Positions 17,350 through 24,626 of a stretch of DNA of 48,426 bases are shown one piece after another (the stretch's first letter is position 1; the number at the start of each line of letters is the position of its first letter). Source of the stretch: Rhizobiaceae bacterium (GTDB lineage: Bacteria > Pseudomonadota > Alphaproteobacteria > Rhizobiales > Rhizobiaceae). The stretch is taken from assembly GCA_029212415.1 (NCBI GenBank), contig JARGOF010000043.1:1-48426 (forward strand), written 5' to 3'. A program made the translations under genes and the position numbers. The notes beneath the pieces were generated by a model that saw only the letters and a list, made by a program, of their open reading frames with translations, ran no database searches and was not told the DNA's origin.

Positions 17350-18207
17350 TTGGAAAAAATCCGCAACGCATTGGTTCTGGTCAAAGCCAGTTGGCGCGTG
17401 CTGATGCTGGACAAGGAACTTCTTGTATTCCCTGTCCTGTCGTTGACCATTCTGGGTGCTTTGCTCATGGCGGCTCTTGGCCCGATCGGCATGTTCAGCA
17501 ATCCGGAAACAGCGATTGATACCATATCCGACACGCTTGCCAACCAGCAGGAATGGGTGTTGCTGGCATGCTCCTTCGTCGCTTATTTTATCGCCTATTT
17601 CGTGATGATTTTCTTTAACGCCGCGATGATCGCCTGCGTCAAGATCCGCTTCGCCGGCGGTGATCCTACCGTCATGGACGGGTTACGCTTTTCCTCGGGG
17701 CGTCTTCCTCAGATACTTGCCTGGGCCCTGGTCGCTTCCACGGTCGGCTTTGTGCTCGGTCAGCTGGAAAAAAAGAGTAAGGGGCTCACCCGATTTCTCC
17801 TTGGCTTCCTGGGAAGCGCCTGGGCTGTTTCCAGCTATTTTGTTGTGCCTGTACTGGTATCGGAACACATCGGCCCCATCAGTGCGGTCAAACGTTCCGT
17901 TGCGATCGTCAGGAAAACCTGGGGGGAGTCACTGGTCTCGGTTGTCGGATTGTCCGTGTTGTCAGGGATTTCCATGGTGCTCATCGTTGGGGTGTTTATG
18001 ATCGCTATGGTGATCGCAGATTCATCACCCTATCTGGCGATCTCTCTTGGCCTGGTTGCGATTGCCCTTGGTATTCTGAGCGGCCTGATTTTCTCCACGC
18101 TTGGATCAATCCTGAAAGCTGCGCTCTATGTTTATGCCGTGGAGGGAAAAATCCCGGATCAATTTGATGATAACCTGATCAAAGGCGCTTTTTCCTCCAA
18201 GAAATAA
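17350..18207 (+). CDS. DUF6159-like multi-pass membrane protein
   Basis: 285 residues with about six hydrophobic segments (roughly 25-48, 70-95, 119-137, 150-170, 198-222 and 228-260). The N-terminal motif (KASWRVLMLDKELLVFPVLS) and the central KIRFAGGDPTVMDGL stretch followed by VVPVLVSEHIGPISAVKRSV are typical of the DUF6159 family. Function is unknown. It starts at TTG with a strong GGTGGAG ribosome site eight bases ahead, and no better in-frame ATG exists before residue 19. Confidence 0.8.
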   Translation: MEKIRNALVLVKASWRVLMLDKELLVFPVLSLTILGALLMAALGPIGMFSNPETAIDTISDTLANQQEWVLLACSFVAYFIAYFVMIFFNAAMIACVKIRFAGGDPTVMDGLRFSSGRLPQILAWALVASTVGFVLGQLEKKSKGLTRFLLGFLGSAWAVSSYFVVPVLVSEHIGPISAVKRSVAIVRKTWGESLVSVVGLSVLSGISMVLIVGVFMIAMVIADSSPYLAISLGLVAIALGILSGLIFSTLGSILKAALYVYAVEGKIPDQFDDNLIKGAFSSKK

Positions 18208-18376
18208 GGCTGAAGCCATGTTCCATGGGGGAATTATGCCAACAGCCATTGATCCGCAGCCTTATTGACAGCTCTGGGCTGTGTTTATGGTGTGTAAATC
18301 ATAGGCTGGAACAGGTCCGTGAAACAGCGTTATCGCAGGCACGGAAGCAGGCCTTCTTCCCCAGTCCAAATTTCTG

Positions 18377-19696
18377 TCAGCGACCTGTGCGCATATAGAT
18401 CCCGAGATCTTTGGCAGTCGCAGTGTTGAACCTGTCCCGCAGCGCAAGCAATTGGCCGACTTCCGTTGACAACAGGGCATGCGCTTTGGCTTCGAGGCGT
18501 GTTTTCAAAGCCTCGATCGATGGCTGTTTGGCCAAATCATGCGCAAAAGGCAGGATGGCACCAGAGGTTGTTCGAAGCGTGCCAAAAGCCTGCTGGTCAC
18601 CCACTTCGCCATCGCCCACCACGGTGACTTTGCGGGCAAGATCCCTGAGTAAGGGATCGCTGGCCAGTGCATCGTCATAGACGCGATCATCTGCCGTGGG
18701 AATCTCGTGAAACACCATTGCCGCCAGCCAGGCATAGCTGAATTTGACTTCAAGGCCCGTGCGCGGCGCTGCGATATTGCAGACCGAGAGCCAACGGGGA
18801 TTGGTTCTCAGCTCAATAGCGGAAACCTCCTGTGGATTTATTGGGTGATCCTGACGCAGGGTGGACAGTGCTTCGATCATCGCATGCGTACCATGGCAAC
18901 AGGCATGGAACTTGTAGCTGTTGTGCAGGAAGCGAAATTGTTCCGGCGGCGCGTCGACCCAGGCGGATTGTTCATCAATCTCATCAGTATGGGTCGGCAC
19001 AAATCCCTGTGCGCCCATGATTCCATCATCCGCCGAGGTCAGTCCGAGAGCGGCAAGGGCAGTGGCCTCAACGCCGTTCGCTGCGGACAAGCCGGCATTG
19101 AGTGGCTTGCCCATGGTTCCAAATTGCGACTTGAGGCCGGATGCCCTGCTGGCACAAAGGCCAAGAGCGTTGCGCAACTGGTCTGGTGTGAGCTTGCGCA
19201 GGCGGGCTGCGGCGATGGTTGCACCGAATGCGCCGGCCGTAGCGGTCTGATGGAAACCGCGATTGTAATGGGCAGCTCCGAGAATGCAGCCGATCCGGAT
19301 CGCGGCTTCCGCGCCGACAAGAAAAGCGTCGGCGACCTCAGTCACCTTGGCATTGACCTCCTCGCCGACGGCCAATGCAGCCGGATAAATGCCCACCGAC
19401 AAATGACCAACATGATCAAAATGCGTATCGTCGTAGTCAAGGGCATGACTGGTTGCCCCATTGACCATGGCGGCCATCCGCGGTGGTGCCATGCCGCCGC
19501 CAAATAGCGAGGATGCTCCAGAGAGCCCTTCTGCATCCGCAAAGGCCCGCAATTTGATGGCGACCGGTTCGTTGATGCCGGCCCGTCCGCAGAGCAACCA
19601 GTCGAAGAGGGAGATCAGCGCCAGTGCCCGCGCTTTGTCGGGCAGGGTTTCAACGGGTTGGGGTGCGAGTGCGAGCAGATGGTCCATTGTGTTCAT
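18377..19696 (-). CDS. MmgE/PrpD family protein
   Basis: About 439 residues with the MmgE/PrpD fold, the family of 2-methylcitrate dehydratase, cis-aconitate decarboxylase and related enzymes. Recognisable elements are the N-terminal DWLLCGRAG helix, NGATSHALDYDDTHFDHVGH (about 80-100), NRGFHQTATAGAFG (about 145-158) and the YKFHACCHGTHAMI region (about 260-275). No prpB or prpC gene is nearby, so a methylcitrate role is unsupported; members with unknown substrates are common. The frame extends to a TTG at 19744, but the ATG at 19696 gives a more typical start; one at 19687 is also possible. Confidence 0.88.
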   Translation of the reverse strand: MNTMDHLLALAPQPVETLPDKARALALISLFDWLLCGRAGINEPVAIKLRAFADAEGLSGASSLFGGGMAPPRMAAMVNGATSHALDYDDTHFDHVGHLSVGIYPAALAVGEEVNAKVTEVADAFLVGAEAAIRIGCILGAAHYNRGFHQTATAGAFGATIAAARLRKLTPDQLRNALGLCASRASGLKSQFGTMGKPLNAGLSAANGVEATALAALGLTSADDGIMGAQGFVPTHTDEIDEQSAWVDAPPEQFRFLHNSYKFHACCHGTHAMIEALSTLRQDHPINPQEVSAIELRTNPRWLSVCNIAAPRTGLEVKFSYAWLAAMVFHEIPTADDRVYDDALASDPLLRDLARKVTVVGDGEVGDQQAFGTLRTTSGAILPFAHDLAKQPSIEALKTRLEAKAHALLSTEVGQLLALRDRFNTATAKDLGIYMRTGR

Positions 19697-20180
19697 GATT
19701 GGCCTGTCGAGTGGGATTCGATCCGGAGACGATGTGCGTTCCAAAAGATCGCATGGAGGAGGGGTCTGTGCAAATGTATATCGATTGGTCTACCTCGTGG
19801 CGCGCGCCTTGATCGCGTCCAGTCCATGGGGGCTGACTGTCTATAGATTAAGAACCATCTTCATCCGCGCAGACGTCCAATGTGAAGTCTGTGTCGTCGA
19901 ACATTGAGGAAAGGCTTCGGCAGGCGAACCTTCTGAGCGATACACCCTTGGTGATTGTCGCGGAGAAAATCCATATCAGCCCCCGCTATGATCCGTGAAT
20001 GTGTGATAATTCTATAAAGAAGCAGTTCATTTCCCCTTCTGCTATGTTGACGGCAGAAAAGGGATAGCGGGTGAAGACAAATCACCGTCGCCGTTTTTAT
20101 CCACAAAGTTGACGTGAGTGTTCCGTCACTCGACATTGCCTGCGAGAAGCCAGTACATTCAGTAGTGGGAGTGCAGTACT
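19697..20180. other. Divergent intergenic region
   Basis: About 480 bases separating the MmgE/PrpD gene from the proteasome-like gene. The frames present (for example minus strand 19861-20136) are not recognisable. It must hold two divergent promoters, but no operator palindrome was identified with confidence. Composition is mixed and the region could mark the edge of an inserted segment. Confidence 0.4.
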
Positions 20181-21278
20181 ATGACGCTAATTGGTCGACT
20201 GAGTTTCTCCGGGTTTCCGGTAATGTTCGGAGATATCCTTCTGTCGCGAACTAATCAAGACTACCCGCAGCCGATAAATCTGCCTGCGATGTCAGATGTC
20301 AACTCTATGCTCCCAGATGAAGCTTGGGGCTATGTCTCTGGCGTAACACAGAAGCTCAACATCATCGACAACAATTTTATGGTCGCTTGGGCTGGGAACT
20401 ATCTTCAGGCCCGTTTTGCCATCAGTCATTTGAAAAAGGCTATTCGAGCAGGTGCCGCAACGTCCGCCGACATCAAAACTGCGTTGAACGACATTGCACC
20501 AGAAATACAAGAAATCTCTTTGTTGGGCTTACTGGTGCGTCCCAATGGACAGCCAAACGGGGTTCATATCGCTAGCTTCGCCGTGGACGTCGAAACTTAT
20601 AACATCAATGACGTAGACGTTCGGCTCGCGGGGACTGGGCAATGGCATGTGAAAGAATTGTTACCCCATGCCATACAGCGTAATGATCAAATTCCATTAA
20701 TTGAGCAGGCAATAAACTCAAGCATTGCCCTGAGCGGTGCCCTGATCGGTCGAGAGATGGACACTGCTTCCAACCTTGCGCAAATGTGGGGTGGGGCAAT
20801 CGAAATTGGTTTCGTCGCGAATGGCAGACTTCAGAAATTGGATCGTGTACTCCACATACAGTCCCGTGTTGTACATATGGGCGACGGTGTGGTTGAATTC
20901 CAGTTCTGGCCCAAACTTACACATTATCGCTATCTCGAACAGTACCTGCTCATCTCAACCATTGAATTGTTCGAGCAGGGGCAGCCCAAATTAGAGCGTT
21001 ACTTAGTCAGCCCAATGATTCGCAACTCTCCACCCACAATCGAAAAAGATAGTCAATATCATTTAGATTTCGCCTACGATTATGTTTGTTGTTATACTTC
21101 GTTTGAAGACGGCATTTCAGATAGTGGTTATGAAGTGTTGGTGATCAGGAGTGCACAAAACGAACTTACTGTGGTCCGAGAAGGCGATAATATTCTCATT
21201 CAATGGGAACCTGCCTTCATTAAACGGATAATTGACAGCACCCGAAATAGCCTCAAAGAGGGATATAGATACGATTGA
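20181..21278 (+). CDS. Proteasome-fold-like (Ntn-hydrolase) protein, undescribed family
   Basis: A 365-residue protein with no signal peptide. The N-terminus reads Met-Thr-Leu-Ile-Gly, so methionine removal would expose Thr as residue 1. Counting from it, Asp falls at position 17 in a hydrophobic strand (FPVMFGDILLS), as Thr1 and Asp17 do in proteasome beta subunits and HslV. A Lys follows in VTQKLNIIDNNFMVAWAG (Met-based Lys58), matching the K-L-x-x-I-D...AG pattern around catalytic Lys33 of beta subunits, with about 24 extra residues between strands. The following helix and LLGLLVRP strand also suit the fold. Residues beyond about 230 form an extension not seen in HslV. A GGGAG site precedes the ATG. 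No ATPase partner is adjacent. Fold and catalysis are inference from this pattern; it could be a self-processing amidase or an inactive homologue. Confidence 0.6.
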   Translation: MTLIGRLSFSGFPVMFGDILLSRTNQDYPQPINLPAMSDVNSMLPDEAWGYVSGVTQKLNIIDNNFMVAWAGNYLQARFAISHLKKAIRAGAATSADIKTALNDIAPEIQEISLLGLLVRPNGQPNGVHIASFAVDVETYNINDVDVRLAGTGQWHVKELLPHAIQRNDQIPLIEQAINSSIALSGALIGREMDTASNLAQMWGGAIEIGFVANGRLQKLDRVLHIQSRVVHMGDGVVEFQFWPKLTHYRYLEQYLLISTIELFEQGQPKLERYLVSPMIRNSPPTIEKDSQYHLDFAYDYVCCYTSFEDGISDSGYEVLVIRSAQNELTVVREGDNILIQWEPAFIKRIIDSTRNSLKEGYRYD

Positions 21279-21611
21279 TATAAGCGTATGTTCAGATCAA
21301 ATGGACCAAAATCATCTCTTTTTGTGCTAGGTTATACGTAAAACCATTTAATAAACTGAGGCGGCTTATAACGCGATGAAATCATGCCGGATATTGGTTT
21401 TTTACTAAAAATTCGATCAAAATTGACAGACACGAGCCTGTCTTCATTGCGCGGTAGCAAGGAGTTCTGCGGCCACATCTGCTTTTCAATTTTGATTGTT
21501 GTTTGTGTTGTCGACTAATGGACCTCGCCTATCGAACGCAGCACGAATAATCGGCCAGATAGTTTAAGCCGTTCAGCCGTGGCCAAGGTGTTCTCAAATG
21601 AGTGTTTCAAA
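21279..21611. other. Intergenic region between the proteasome-like gene and tRNA-Leu
   Basis: About 330 A+T-richer bases with no recognised gene, RNA or hairpin terminator. Because it lies against the 3' end of a tRNA gene it was inspected for an integrase or a duplicated tRNA end; none was seen. Confidence 0.4.
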
Positions 21612-21698
21612 TGGTGCCCCCTGCCGGACTTGAACCGGCAAACCCATTCGGGTGACAGATTTTAAGTCTGTTGCGTATACCAATTTCGCCAAGGGGGC
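21612..21698 (-). tRNA. tRNA-Leu (anticodon TAA)
   Basis: Class II tRNA of 87 bases with encoded CCA at 21612-21614. The acceptor stem GCCCCCT pairs perfectly with AGGGGGC. The anticodon arm has stem ACAGA/TCTGT and loop CTTAAAA, giving anticodon TAA. A long variable arm and the GGTTCAAGTCC T-arm are present. Confidence 0.96.
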
Positions 21699-22018
21699 AC
21701 GCGTGCCTACTGGTAATTATCCATCACAGGATTGCAACCCCTGTTGTCTTTCGCCGGCATTTTTCATTGAATTTCCAGCGGACCATTGTTGCAAGGTGCA
21801 AAATGTGCAAATCCCATCGCAGGAAAAAGGACCTGACGATAAAACGGTCTCCGGTCAATAATTTGCAGGATAATTCAGCCGCCGCAAAGCGATAGGGGCC
21901 GATCCCGCTCTGGTCTTGGTGCGGTTGGCGTGATTCGCGATCGTCTGTCCTGGCGGATATGCCTTGGATGCGAGGCTTTCGGCATCGCCGCACTGATAAC
22001 TGAAATGGAAAACATGAC
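21699..22018. other. Intergenic region upstream of ilvA
   Basis: About 320 bases that should hold the divergent promoters for tRNA-Leu and ilvA. Open frames on the minus strand here run antisense into ilvA and have no recognisable domain. No leader peptide rich in branched-chain residues and no attenuator hairpin were seen. Confidence 0.4.
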
Positions 22019-23266
22019 ATGAATAATGCCGTTGACGATGCCAGGGACGCAATGCGGGAATTGTTTGCGCCGACGCCGCTGCAATACAATGATTTTCTCA
22101 GCGGCAAATATGGTGCGAACGTCTATCTCAAACGTGAAGACCTGACCCTGGTGCGATCCTACAAGATTCGCGGTGCGTTCAATTTCTTTCGCAAGGCGCT
22201 GCGTGTGGATCAACCGCCGCAGCGGTTTGTCTGTGCCTCTGCCGGCAATCACGCGCAGGGTTTTGCCTATGTATGCCGGCACTTCGAGAAACCCGGCGTG
22301 GTCTATATGCCCGTGACAACACCGCCGCAAAAAATTGCAAAAACCAAGGCCTTTGGTGGCGCCTTCATTGAGGTGCGGCTGGTCGGCGACATTTTTGACG
22401 AATGTTATGATGCTGCCAAGGCCTATGCAGAAAGCGATGGGGCGATGATGGTGCCGCCCTTCGATCACGCGGATATTATTGAAGGGCAGGCCACTGTTGC
22501 ATCGGAAATCGTCGCTCAATTGCCTAAGGGTGCGCATGCGGACCTGATGATCATTCCGGTCGGTGGTGGCGGGCTGTCGGCCGGCATGACCACCTATCTG
22601 CGCGATCAATATCCCAGCCAGGCCTTCCTGTTTTGTGAACCGGCGGGTGCGCCGAGCCTGAAGGAAAGCCTGAAGGCCGGGCACCGGGTAAAGCTGAAGC
22701 AGGTCGACAATTTTGTCGATGGCGCAGCTGTTGCCGAGATCGGGGCGCAGAATTTTGAAGCCCTGAAGCATTTTAGTGCAGATCAGGTCATGCTGATCGC
22801 GGAAAATGCTGTTTGTGTGACCATTACGGAATTGCTCAATATTGAAGGCATTGTGCTCGAACCGGCCGGGGCGCTGGCCATTGCAGCACTTGAGGAGATC
22901 GGCAAAAGCGCGCTGGCTGGCAAGACCGTTGTGGTTATCGTCTCGGGTGGAAATTTCGACTTCGAAAGGCTGCCGGACGTCAAGGAACGGGCCATGCGCC
23001 ATCTGGGCCTGAAAAAATATTTTGTCTTGAGACTGGCGCAACGGCCGGGTGCATTGAAGGATTTCCTCAACATGCTCGGGCCGGAGGATGATATTGCGCG
23101 GTTTGAATATCTGAAGAAGTCGGCGCGCAACTTCGGCTCCATCCTGATTGGAATCGAGACGCGGAATTCCAACAATTTTGATCGTCTGACAAAGGCATTC
23201 GATGATGCGGGTTTGCGTTACGAGGATATTACCGATAATGAGATTCTCGCCAGTCTGATTATCTGA
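22019..23266 (+). CDS. ilvA: Threonine ammonia-lyase (threonine dehydratase) IlvA
   Basis: PLP enzyme of 415 residues that deaminates threonine to 2-oxobutanoate, the first step of isoleucine synthesis. The PLP lysine is Lys49 in the SYKIRGAF motif, the SAGNHAQG substrate loop lies at about 74-81, and the glycine-rich phosphate loop is VGGGGLSAG at about 181-189. The C-terminal part (about 335-415) is a single ACT-like domain, as in the shorter, B. subtilis-type IlvA. The ATG at 22019 has GGAAA upstream. A second branched-chain gene, ilvD, lies about 24 kb away and is not in the same operon. Confidence 0.94.
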   Translation: MNNAVDDARDAMRELFAPTPLQYNDFLSGKYGANVYLKREDLTLVRSYKIRGAFNFFRKALRVDQPPQRFVCASAGNHAQGFAYVCRHFEKPGVVYMPVTTPPQKIAKTKAFGGAFIEVRLVGDIFDECYDAAKAYAESDGAMMVPPFDHADIIEGQATVASEIVAQLPKGAHADLMIIPVGGGGLSAGMTTYLRDQYPSQAFLFCEPAGAPSLKESLKAGHRVKLKQVDNFVDGAAVAEIGAQNFEALKHFSADQVMLIAENAVCVTITELLNIEGIVLEPAGALAIAALEEIGKSALAGKTVVVIVSGGNFDFERLPDVKERAMRHLGLKKYFVLRLAQRPGALKDFLNMLGPEDDIARFEYLKKSARNFGSILIGIETRNSNNFDRLTKAFDDAGLRYEDITDNEILASLII

Positions 23267-23432
23267 ATGCCCGGACTTTCATCATTTCGGTTAGCGATAT
23301 TCAATCGGCGGGGATTTGGGGGATGCGATGTCTGGTGTTGAAAAAACAATGGTTCGTCTGACTGCGGGCGCAGTCTCACACTTTCGGACCGATCGCGGAT
23401 CGGCAACCCGAATGACGAAAGACGGTGTCTGA

Positions 23433-24626
23433 ATGGCCGGTATTGCAGCGCTTGTCACAGCCTATATTTTTTCCCAGTTCTACCGGTCTTTTCTGGCAGT
23501 ACTGACGCCGATACTGGGCTCCGAACTGGGGGCGGACAAGGCGGATCTGTCGCTTGCTTCCGGCGCTTGGTTTCTGACATTTGCGCTGATGCAATTTGTC
23601 GTTGGCGTTGCGCTCGACCGCTTCGGTCCCAAAAGAACTGCGACCATCATATTCGGTCTTGGTGCTGGTGGCGGTGCCTTTCTGTTTGCAGCAGCGACCT
23701 CACCAACAGCTATCATCATCGCCATGGGCTTGATCGGCATCGGCTGTTCGCCTGTCTTGATGGCCGCATTTTTCCTTTTTGCCCGGCGTTTTGCATCGGC
23801 GCGATTTGCCATCCTGTCATCGTGGTTTGTGGCCCTTGGGACAGCAGGCAACGTTATTGGCGCCAAGCCGCTGGCGATCGCCGTGGACCTCGTCGGCTGG
23901 CGGGAAACCATGACCGGTCTGGGGGTTGTCACCTTGCTGACAGCGGCAGCCATTTTCTGGCTGGTCAAGGATCCTCCTGTTGAAAAGAGTCAGGGGAAAG
24001 ATGCAGGCTTTTCCGGCTATTTCGCATTGCTGAAAATCCCGGCCCTGTGGTTCGTCATACCGCTGATTGCCATCAATTATGCGCCTTCGGCCGGCATACG
24101 CGGTCTTTGGGTTGGCCCCTATCTGTCCGATGTCTACGGCGCCTCGACGCAGATCATCGGCAATGTTTCGCTGTTCATGGCCATATCAATGATCATAGGA
24201 GCCTTCCTCTACGGGCCGATGGACACGCTGTTTGGTACCCGCAAATGGGTGGCGTTTTTCGGCAATCTTTGTGGCATGCTGGCGCTGCTCGTGCTTGCCA
24301 CATTCCCGATACAGCCGCTCTGGCAGGTGACCATCCTGTTGTTTGCCATTGGCCTGTTCGGTTCGAGCTACGGCGTTCTGGCGGCCCATGCGCGCTCATT
24401 CTTTCCCGTTCACCTCACCGGCAGGGGGGTGACACTGATGAACTTTTTCACCATTGGCGGGGTCGGGCTGGTGCAATTTGTGATGGGGCAGGCGGCGGAT
24501 TCCAACTTCAATCCGGTGCAACCGGAGCAGACATTCAGTCTGCTGTTTTATGTCTATGCGGCACTGACCGGTGCGGCATTGCTCATCTATTATTTCTCAG
24601 CTGACAGCAAGCCCGGGGAAAATTGA
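23433..24626 (+). CDS. MFS transporter
   Basis: Inner-membrane transporter of 397 residues with about 12 hydrophobic segments. Motif A is present between helices 2 and 3 as VALDRFGPKR, and the first half contains the GIGCSPVLMA helix and FALFARRF-like loop often seen in nitrate/carboxylate-type MFS porters. The ATG has no strong ribosome site. It is convergent with the following hydrolase gene, whose stop is only about 40 bases away. The substrate is unknown. Confidence 0.85.
   Translation: MAGIAALVTAYIFSQFYRSFLAVLTPILGSELGADKADLSLASGAWFLTFALMQFVVGVALDRFGPKRTATIIFGLGAGGGAFLFAAATSPTAIIIAMGLIGIGCSPVLMAAFFLFARRFASARFAILSSWFVALGTAGNVIGAKPLAIAVDLVGWRETMTGLGVVTLLTAAAIFWLVKDPPVEKSQGKDAGFSGYFALLKIPALWFVIPLIAINYAPSAGIRGLWVGPYLSDVYGASTQIIGNVSLFMAISMIIGAFLYGPMDTLFGTRKWVAFFGNLCGMLALLVLATFPIQPLWQVTILLFAIGLFGSSYGVLAAHARSFFPVHLTGRGVTLMNFFTIGGVGLVQFVMGQAADSNFNPVQPEQTFSLLFYVYAALTGAALLIYYFSADSKPGEN

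Follow-up and report, generated by a model that had tools for sequence, protein, structure and literature searches.

In the proteasome, Thr1 is the nucleophile and Lys33 the base, Asp17 orients Lys33, and the NH of Gly47 provides the oxyanion hole (Huber et al. 2016, PMC4792962); 33 and 47 are also the positions given for the Lys and the Gly in PMC8665760. Fuchs, Alva and Lupas (2021, PMC8665760) described 22 new prokaryotic subfamilies of proteasome-like proteins that carry the same residues, some of them with C-terminal domains. They state that the genomic surroundings of the new proteins gave no hint of a particular role. Here, we describe a gene of this kind in a 48,426-nucleotide stretch of DNA from a Rhizobiaceae bacterium (assembly GCA_029212415.1, contig JARGOF010000043.1, positions 1 to 48,426; hereafter, the window). 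It is an open reading frame (ORF) of 365 amino acids at 20181–21278 on the + strand, with an ATG start. Judging from residue conservation and predicted models, the window protein probably belongs to the proteasome-like family as a propeptide-free N-terminal nucleophile (Ntn) threonine hydrolase that carries an insert between strands S3 and S4 and a C-terminal domain. We put the probability at roughly 85%, a figure that covers the class of the protein only, the fold being predicted and catalysis, Met removal, substrate class and role being deduced.

Putative catalytic residues in eleven homologues

Numbered after removal of the initiator Met, the window protein has Thr1, Asp17 and Lys57, the Lys within 'QKLNIIDNNFMVAWAG' and in the context 'QKLNIID...AWAG'. 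An earlier sequence-only reading had singled out this N-terminal Thr, Asp17 and a Lys, and had proposed homologues as a check. The family comprises 11 distinct members, counting the window protein (the gene of Candidatus Tenderia electrophaga was retrieved twice), and all three residues are kept in 11 of 11. In the 11-member alignment, the ten other members are 17–37% identical to the window protein, and mean column identity over the 364 columns is 29%. The invariant columns, counted with Met, are M1, T2, D18, K58, G72, G151, G153, G204 and P278. Leaving Met1 aside there are eight, and T2, D18 and K58 are all among them (hypergeometric 7e-6, indicative only, given that the members share ancestry and that their alignment is anchored at the N-terminus). 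Features of the gene are as follows.

20167..20171, + strand: possible ribosome-binding site GGGAG, 9 nt 5′ of the ATG (by eye)
20181..21278, + strand: coding sequence of the predicted proteasome-like Ntn threonine hydrolase, 365 amino acids plus stop (ORF, homologue searches, AlphaFold2, Foldseek)
20184..20186, + strand: codon of Thr1 (residue 2 with Met), predicted nucleophile; invariant in 11/11, no upstream start in 9/11
20232..20234, + strand: codon GAT of Asp17 (residue 18); invariant in 11/11, at mature position 17 in each
20253..20330, + strand: S3/S4 insert, about residues 25–50, missing in the Tenderia homologue (model secondary structure, spacing, alignment)
20352..20354, + strand: codon AAG of Lys57 (residue 58), putative equivalent of proteasome Lys33; invariant in 11/11, placed by hhalign onto HslV Lys33
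20394..20396, + strand: codon of Gly71 (residue 72), putative equivalent of oxyanion-hole Gly47; invariant in 11/11, at mature position 46 in Tenderia, where the insert is missing
20631..20639, + strand: GxG motif, residues 151–153, likely equivalent of proteasome Gly-Ser129-Gly; both Gly invariant in 11/11
21009..21275, + strand: C-terminal extension past the proteasome core, residues 277–365, predicted small, mostly beta domain (model secondary structure)

Asp occupies mature position 17 in every member, and in ten members the Lys lies at 54–60. In the Tenderia member, which lacks an insert of about 24 residues, the series runs Thr1, Asp17, Lys32, Gly46, nearly the proteasome spacing. The long Thr–Lys distance that had been noticed in the window protein is thus explained by the insert. 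Gly71 is the Gly that follows 'W[A/S]'. At the middle of the GxG motif, the position of proteasome Ser129, ten of the 11 members have Ser or Thr and one (L007) has Val.

All 11 members start with Met-Thr, two of them (Tenderia and L009) from a GTG codon. In the window gene, only five codons separate the upstream stop from the ATG, none of them ATG, GTG or TTG, and 9 of 11 members have no in-frame ATG, GTG or TTG upstream of Met-Thr (the exceptions are L004 and L012). Since nine members have no earlier in-frame start, a propeptide is unlikely.

How much weight can the residue pattern bear? We made a crude longest-ORF call over 10 loci (ORFs of at least 100 amino acids, the family gene of L014 being given an earlier start). 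T2 and D18 occurred together in 10 of 182 ORFs, nine of which were family genes and one was not, or in 1 of 172 ORFs once the 10 family genes are set aside. By extrapolation, a genome would encode dozens of proteins with this pair. On one sequence the pattern is weak, hence the need for homologues; conservation across 11 members decides. A chance resemblance, or an Ntn fold that is catalytically dead, would fit with a pattern that is not rare in single sequences and with the absence of any match to a curated model. It fits poorly with a complete triad that is invariant at 17–37% identity and with a predicted proteasome fold, and we consider it very improbable.

Because the equivalents of Thr1, Asp17, Lys33 and Gly47 are all invariant, we infer that the window protein is a working Ntn threonine hydrolase. 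Methionine aminopeptidase removes Met before Thr, and here it would expose Thr1 directly, with no propeptide. Thr1 would then act as the nucleophile and Lys57, the Lys33 equivalent, as the base, oriented by Asp17, and the backbone of Gly71 would form the oxyanion hole. The enzyme would attack a peptide or amide bond without an adjacently encoded ATPase, probably in an unfolded or a specific protein substrate. The S3/S4 insert and the C-terminal domain may set specificity and assembly.

Predicted fold and nearest described families

Structure prediction followed by a fold search, which the sequence-only reading had also proposed, matches the protein to proteasome chains. AlphaFold2 models were obtained for the window protein (predicted local distance difference test, pLDDT, 84.1; predicted template modelling score, pTM, 0.87; 8-row alignment) and for homologue L009, 21% identical to it (pLDDT 77.8, pTM 0.83, 9-row alignment). 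Both models have a predicted two-sheet core with flanking helices H1–H4; in the window model, H1 spans 74–89 and H2 spans 95–104. Foldseek against the PDB gave 416 matches for the window model and 709 for the L009 model at E ≤ 0.001, and all of the 50 matches listed for each model are chains of proteasome entries. The best match was 1j2q_H for the window model (E 4.6e-6, target-normalised TM-score 0.60) and 8fz5_K for the L009 model (E 6.6e-8, 0.64). Against viral models, a single match reached E ≤ 0.001, to a phage protein that bears the name proteasome beta type-2 (E 1.5e-6). Sequence comparisons point the same way. A profile of the family gave 25 matches to PDB sequences at E ≤ 1. Proteasome or HslV accounted for 20 of them, and for all of the best 18; with earlier alignments, at E ≤ 10, these made up 16 of 16 and 20 of 23 matches. 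When the family was aligned with six HslV proteins by hhalign, T2, D18, K58 and the AG pair fell onto T1, D17, K33 and the AG of HslV, in agreement with the original proposal of proteasome-beta/HslV-like catalytic residues.

Several results weigh against this assignment. The alignments under both AlphaFold2 models are shallow (8 and 9 rows), and target-normalised TM-scores among the Foldseek matches listed range only from 0.45 to 0.66. The sequence links are individually marginal: the best E of the profile against the PDB is only 0.011, the hhalign result has E 0.0029 but a probability of 10.8%, and the profile against a single HslV yields a probability of 0.5% and no useful score. The window protein has no match in Pfam (best E 0.07), NCBIfam or PADLOC, eight members searched against Pfam gave none, and ten members searched against PHROGs gave none below E 0.2. 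A genome-wide search with PF00227, the profile named in the sequence-only reading, misses the window gene and finds only another locus. Finally, no residue that is invariant in the 11 members corresponds to Asp166 of the second proteasome triad. In direct comparisons, PF00227 matched neither the window protein (E ≤ 10) nor eight members (E ≤ 1), and phmmer with the window protein alone against the PDB returned one match, E 0.38, to a protein that is not an Ntn protein. DUF7680, the top Pfam match with E 0.07, scored under its cut-off and was taken as chance.

The nearest described families differ from the window protein in distinct ways. HslV shares the aligned Thr1, Asp17, Lys33 and AG positions, and its GSG resembles the GxG motif. 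Unlike HslV, however, the window protein has no PF00227 match, is 365 rather than about 180 amino acids long, carries the S3/S4 insert and the C-terminal domain, and has no hslU or other ATPase gene beside it by eye. We also rejected HslV as its identity because the genome has an HslV-like gene of its own: the separate PF00227 protein, at locus L025, shares up to 85% identity with the HslV proteins of related plasmids. The sequence-only reading had likewise set the protein apart from HslV. A 20S proteasome beta subunit such as 1j2q_H shares the predicted fold and the catalytic triad; unlike it, the window protein probably has no propeptide, its Lys is at 57, an invariant Asp166 counterpart is missing, and no alpha subunit or ATPase gene adjoins it by eye. 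Anbu is described as having a long C-terminal coiled-coil helix, H5; the window model has one C-terminal helix (344–357) after the beta domain. In the 11-member alignment, the C-terminal extension is weakly conserved except for Pro278.

It is also conceivable that the protein, as archaeal connectase does, works as a transpeptidase (protein ligase) and not as a protease, so that another amine would resolve the Thr1 acyl-enzyme. Both have Thr1, and some connectase variants have a C-terminal domain. The insert, present in 10 of 11 members, lies at S3/S4, the site of the connectase specificity element (PMC8665760), and no ATPase partner adjoins the window gene. Compared by description, though, the two-helix insert of connectase and its lack of H1 and H2 have no parallel here. 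The window insert, modelled as part of the loop that joins strands 20–23 and 51–55, is short and has no helix of four or more residues; one member lacks it altogether; and H1 and H2 are both present in the window model. We therefore regard a ligase as unlikely, and retain the hydrolase assignment.

Does the protein belong to one of the 22 subfamilies of Fuchs et al., for example DAH, GPH or RPC, so that only its context is new? We give this somewhat less than even odds. Like the window protein, the proteins they describe combine an N-terminal Thr without a propeptide, equivalents of Asp17, Lys33 and Gly47, and an H1–H4 core, with S3/S4 inserts in some, C-terminal domains in others and a scattered distribution. 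Members of our family also occur in Proteobacteria, on a cyanobacterial plasmid and, by eye, at a prophage end. On the other hand, DAH is described in phages, yet tblastn searches of 50,697 phage records gave 0 matches for either query, the window protein (E ≤ 0.1) or homologue L021 (E ≤ 1), and no PHROG family was reached. In the accessible part of PMC8665760, S3/S4 inserts are described only for connectase, PMI-5 and PMI-6, which is not decisive, and the combination of such an insert with a C-terminal domain only for connectase variants, a comparison made by description. The novelty suggested by the sequence-only reading must be narrowed to match: proteins of this kind were already described in 2021, and this member, unannotated in Pfam, NCBIfam and PADLOC, possibly represents a further subfamily.

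Distribution and genomic setting

Homologues are sparse. A scan of genome contigs found one in Oricola indica (39% identity over 320 aligned positions), and tblastn against plasmids found one in Oscillatoria nigro-viridis (25% identity, E 2e-19) and the one in Tenderia (20%, E 4e-6). Whole-genome searches were positive in 1 of 101 relatives, 2 of 397 genomes in the order and 5 of 385 in the class, and profile searches in 4 of 299 in the phylum; searches around other positive genomes gave 1/78, 2/120, 1/17, 1/15 and 2/274. Each of these tallies counts its centre genome, and the samples partly overlap. The gene was present in none of the seven other genomes of the same genus among the 101 relatives, and the viral contigs searched held no relatives. 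It appears to be an accessory gene moving between genomes.

At the window site, two features frame the gene.

19777..21608, no strand: variable segment, replaced in sister genome G004 by a 3.3-kb stretch with a UvrD-like helicase gene (flanks match G004 at 92–94%)
21612..21698, − strand: tRNA-Leu (taa), its 3′ end abutting the variable segment (tRNA call)

The aligned flanks are window positions 18000–19776 and 21609–23600 (the outer ends being those of the query), and three bases separate the break relative to G004 from the 3′ end of tRNA-Leu. The gene has 46.8% guanine plus cytosine (GC) versus 53.8% for the window more than 500 bases away, which bears out the slight shift in base composition seen earlier. 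The sequence-only reading had placed the gene between a tRNA gene and a metabolic gene: the former is now called as tRNA-Leu, and the latter, ORF 18377–19744, is MmgE/PrpD-like by eye only. As that reading had it, no ATPase or partner gene was seen beside the window gene by eye. The tRNA-Leu site may be a hotspot for accessory genes. Insertion there by an integrase is unsupported. Within 19600–21800, a repeat search found one short direct-repeat pair, with both copies inside the gene, and no att-like repeats or scar, and no integrase was seen at the site by eye. Promoter and terminator scans at the locus gave about shuffle level. In G004, the corresponding site (L047:2536–5529) encodes a 998-amino-acid UvrD-type helicase with a topoisomerase-type zinc ribbon, matched by PADLOC GajB helicase models (best E 2.8e-43).

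Across the family, gene GC is below that of the surroundings in 11 of 11 loci, the difference ranging from −0.009 (L018) to −0.307 (L014). The conserved neighbours that the sequence-only reading had hoped for did not emerge: neighbours vary between loci, and no conserved operon partner was seen. The Oricola gene lies downstream of phage tail and lysis genes (by eye) and upstream of tRNA genes. Beside it, L003:7572–8078 encodes a 169-amino-acid protein with no Pfam (E ≤ 0.01) or PADLOC (E ≤ 0.001) match. In G1036 (L018), the gene adjoins one for a NOV_C-domain protein that matches the PADLOC candidate PDC-S36 (E 2e-99), and a PtuA-like ATPase (E 1.5e-53) is encoded about 5 kb away. In Oscillatoria, it is flanked by hsdS and hsdR, in a type I restriction operon that continues with a SprT metalloprotease.

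The enzyme would most likely be a processing or degrading protease in the service of a mobile or defence element. One caveat is that the settings are uneven. Five of the six loci fetched at about 20 kb (L014–L017 and L026) have housekeeping-like neighbours by eye, with no defence or mobile genes seen within about 10 kb, which speaks against a general mobile or defence setting. A further point against the overall reading is the GC gap at L018, which is only −0.009. For the window gene, we consider such a role a tentative possibility, with the odds somewhat against it.

Multiubiquitin cassettes near the plasmid genes

The near edge of a multiubiquitin/ThiF cassette lies within 5 kb of the gene in both plasmid records found to carry it. 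The Oscillatoria cassette, multiubiquitin–E2–ThiF–DUF6527, has its end 4.7 kb upstream of the gene; cassette, type I restriction operon with the proteasome-like gene, and terminal SprT together span NC_019763.1:27247–39615 (L060). In Tenderia, Multi_ubiq (E 1.6e-34) and ThiF (E 9.1e-35) are accompanied by a weak JAB match (E 0.0054, under its cut-off). The near edge of this cassette is about 3 kb from the gene; KfrA and, by eye, an integrase-like protein are encoded in the interval. Upstream of the Tenderia multiubiquitin gene, L027:7454–8368 encodes a 305-amino-acid protein with no Pfam match at E ≤ 0.01. A plasmid of Methylomagnum ishizawai (L062:6887–10711) carries a multiubiquitin–ThiF–DUF6527 cassette followed by an SprT-like gene. 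SprT, which also ends the Oscillatoria restriction operon, is possibly a recurrent companion.

Might the gene work with bacterial ubiquitin-like conjugation, the cassette tagging proteins and the enzyme cutting or degrading what is tagged? The co-occurrence stands out against the plasmid background, in which the Oscillatoria multiubiquitin protein matches 169 of 72,556 records and the Tenderia one 151. Yet in neither plasmid do cassette and gene share an operon, and three other multiubiquitin plasmid loci lack a family member. Seven ubiquitin-system proteins found no match in the nine other loci (phmmer, E ≤ 0.01; loci of 4–48 kb, in which diverged genes could escape). Moreover, defence islands gather unrelated systems, and large, defence-rich plasmids are a strong confounder. 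We consider such a partnership improbable. Equally doubtful is the wider scheme in which a new proteasome-like subfamily would form the proteolytic arm of anti-phage defence and pair, in some plasmids, with a multiubiquitin conjugation cassette, giving a ubiquitin-plus-proteasome-like system built from mobile parts.

Among the papers listed by literature searches on this family, or on a connection of it with ubiquitin-like systems or defence, only PMC8665760 was directly relevant; we make no claim that the subfamily is absent from print. Pairs of proteases and nucleases in bacterial immunity were reported in 2025 (PMC12799240). What we present is a family with invariant catalytic residues, some of whose loci (the variable site beside a tRNA gene, the type I restriction operon and the multiubiquitin cassettes) offer concrete leads on function. 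A role in defence, should the protein have one, would connect the proteasome fold with bacterial immunity, alongside those protease–nuclease pairs.
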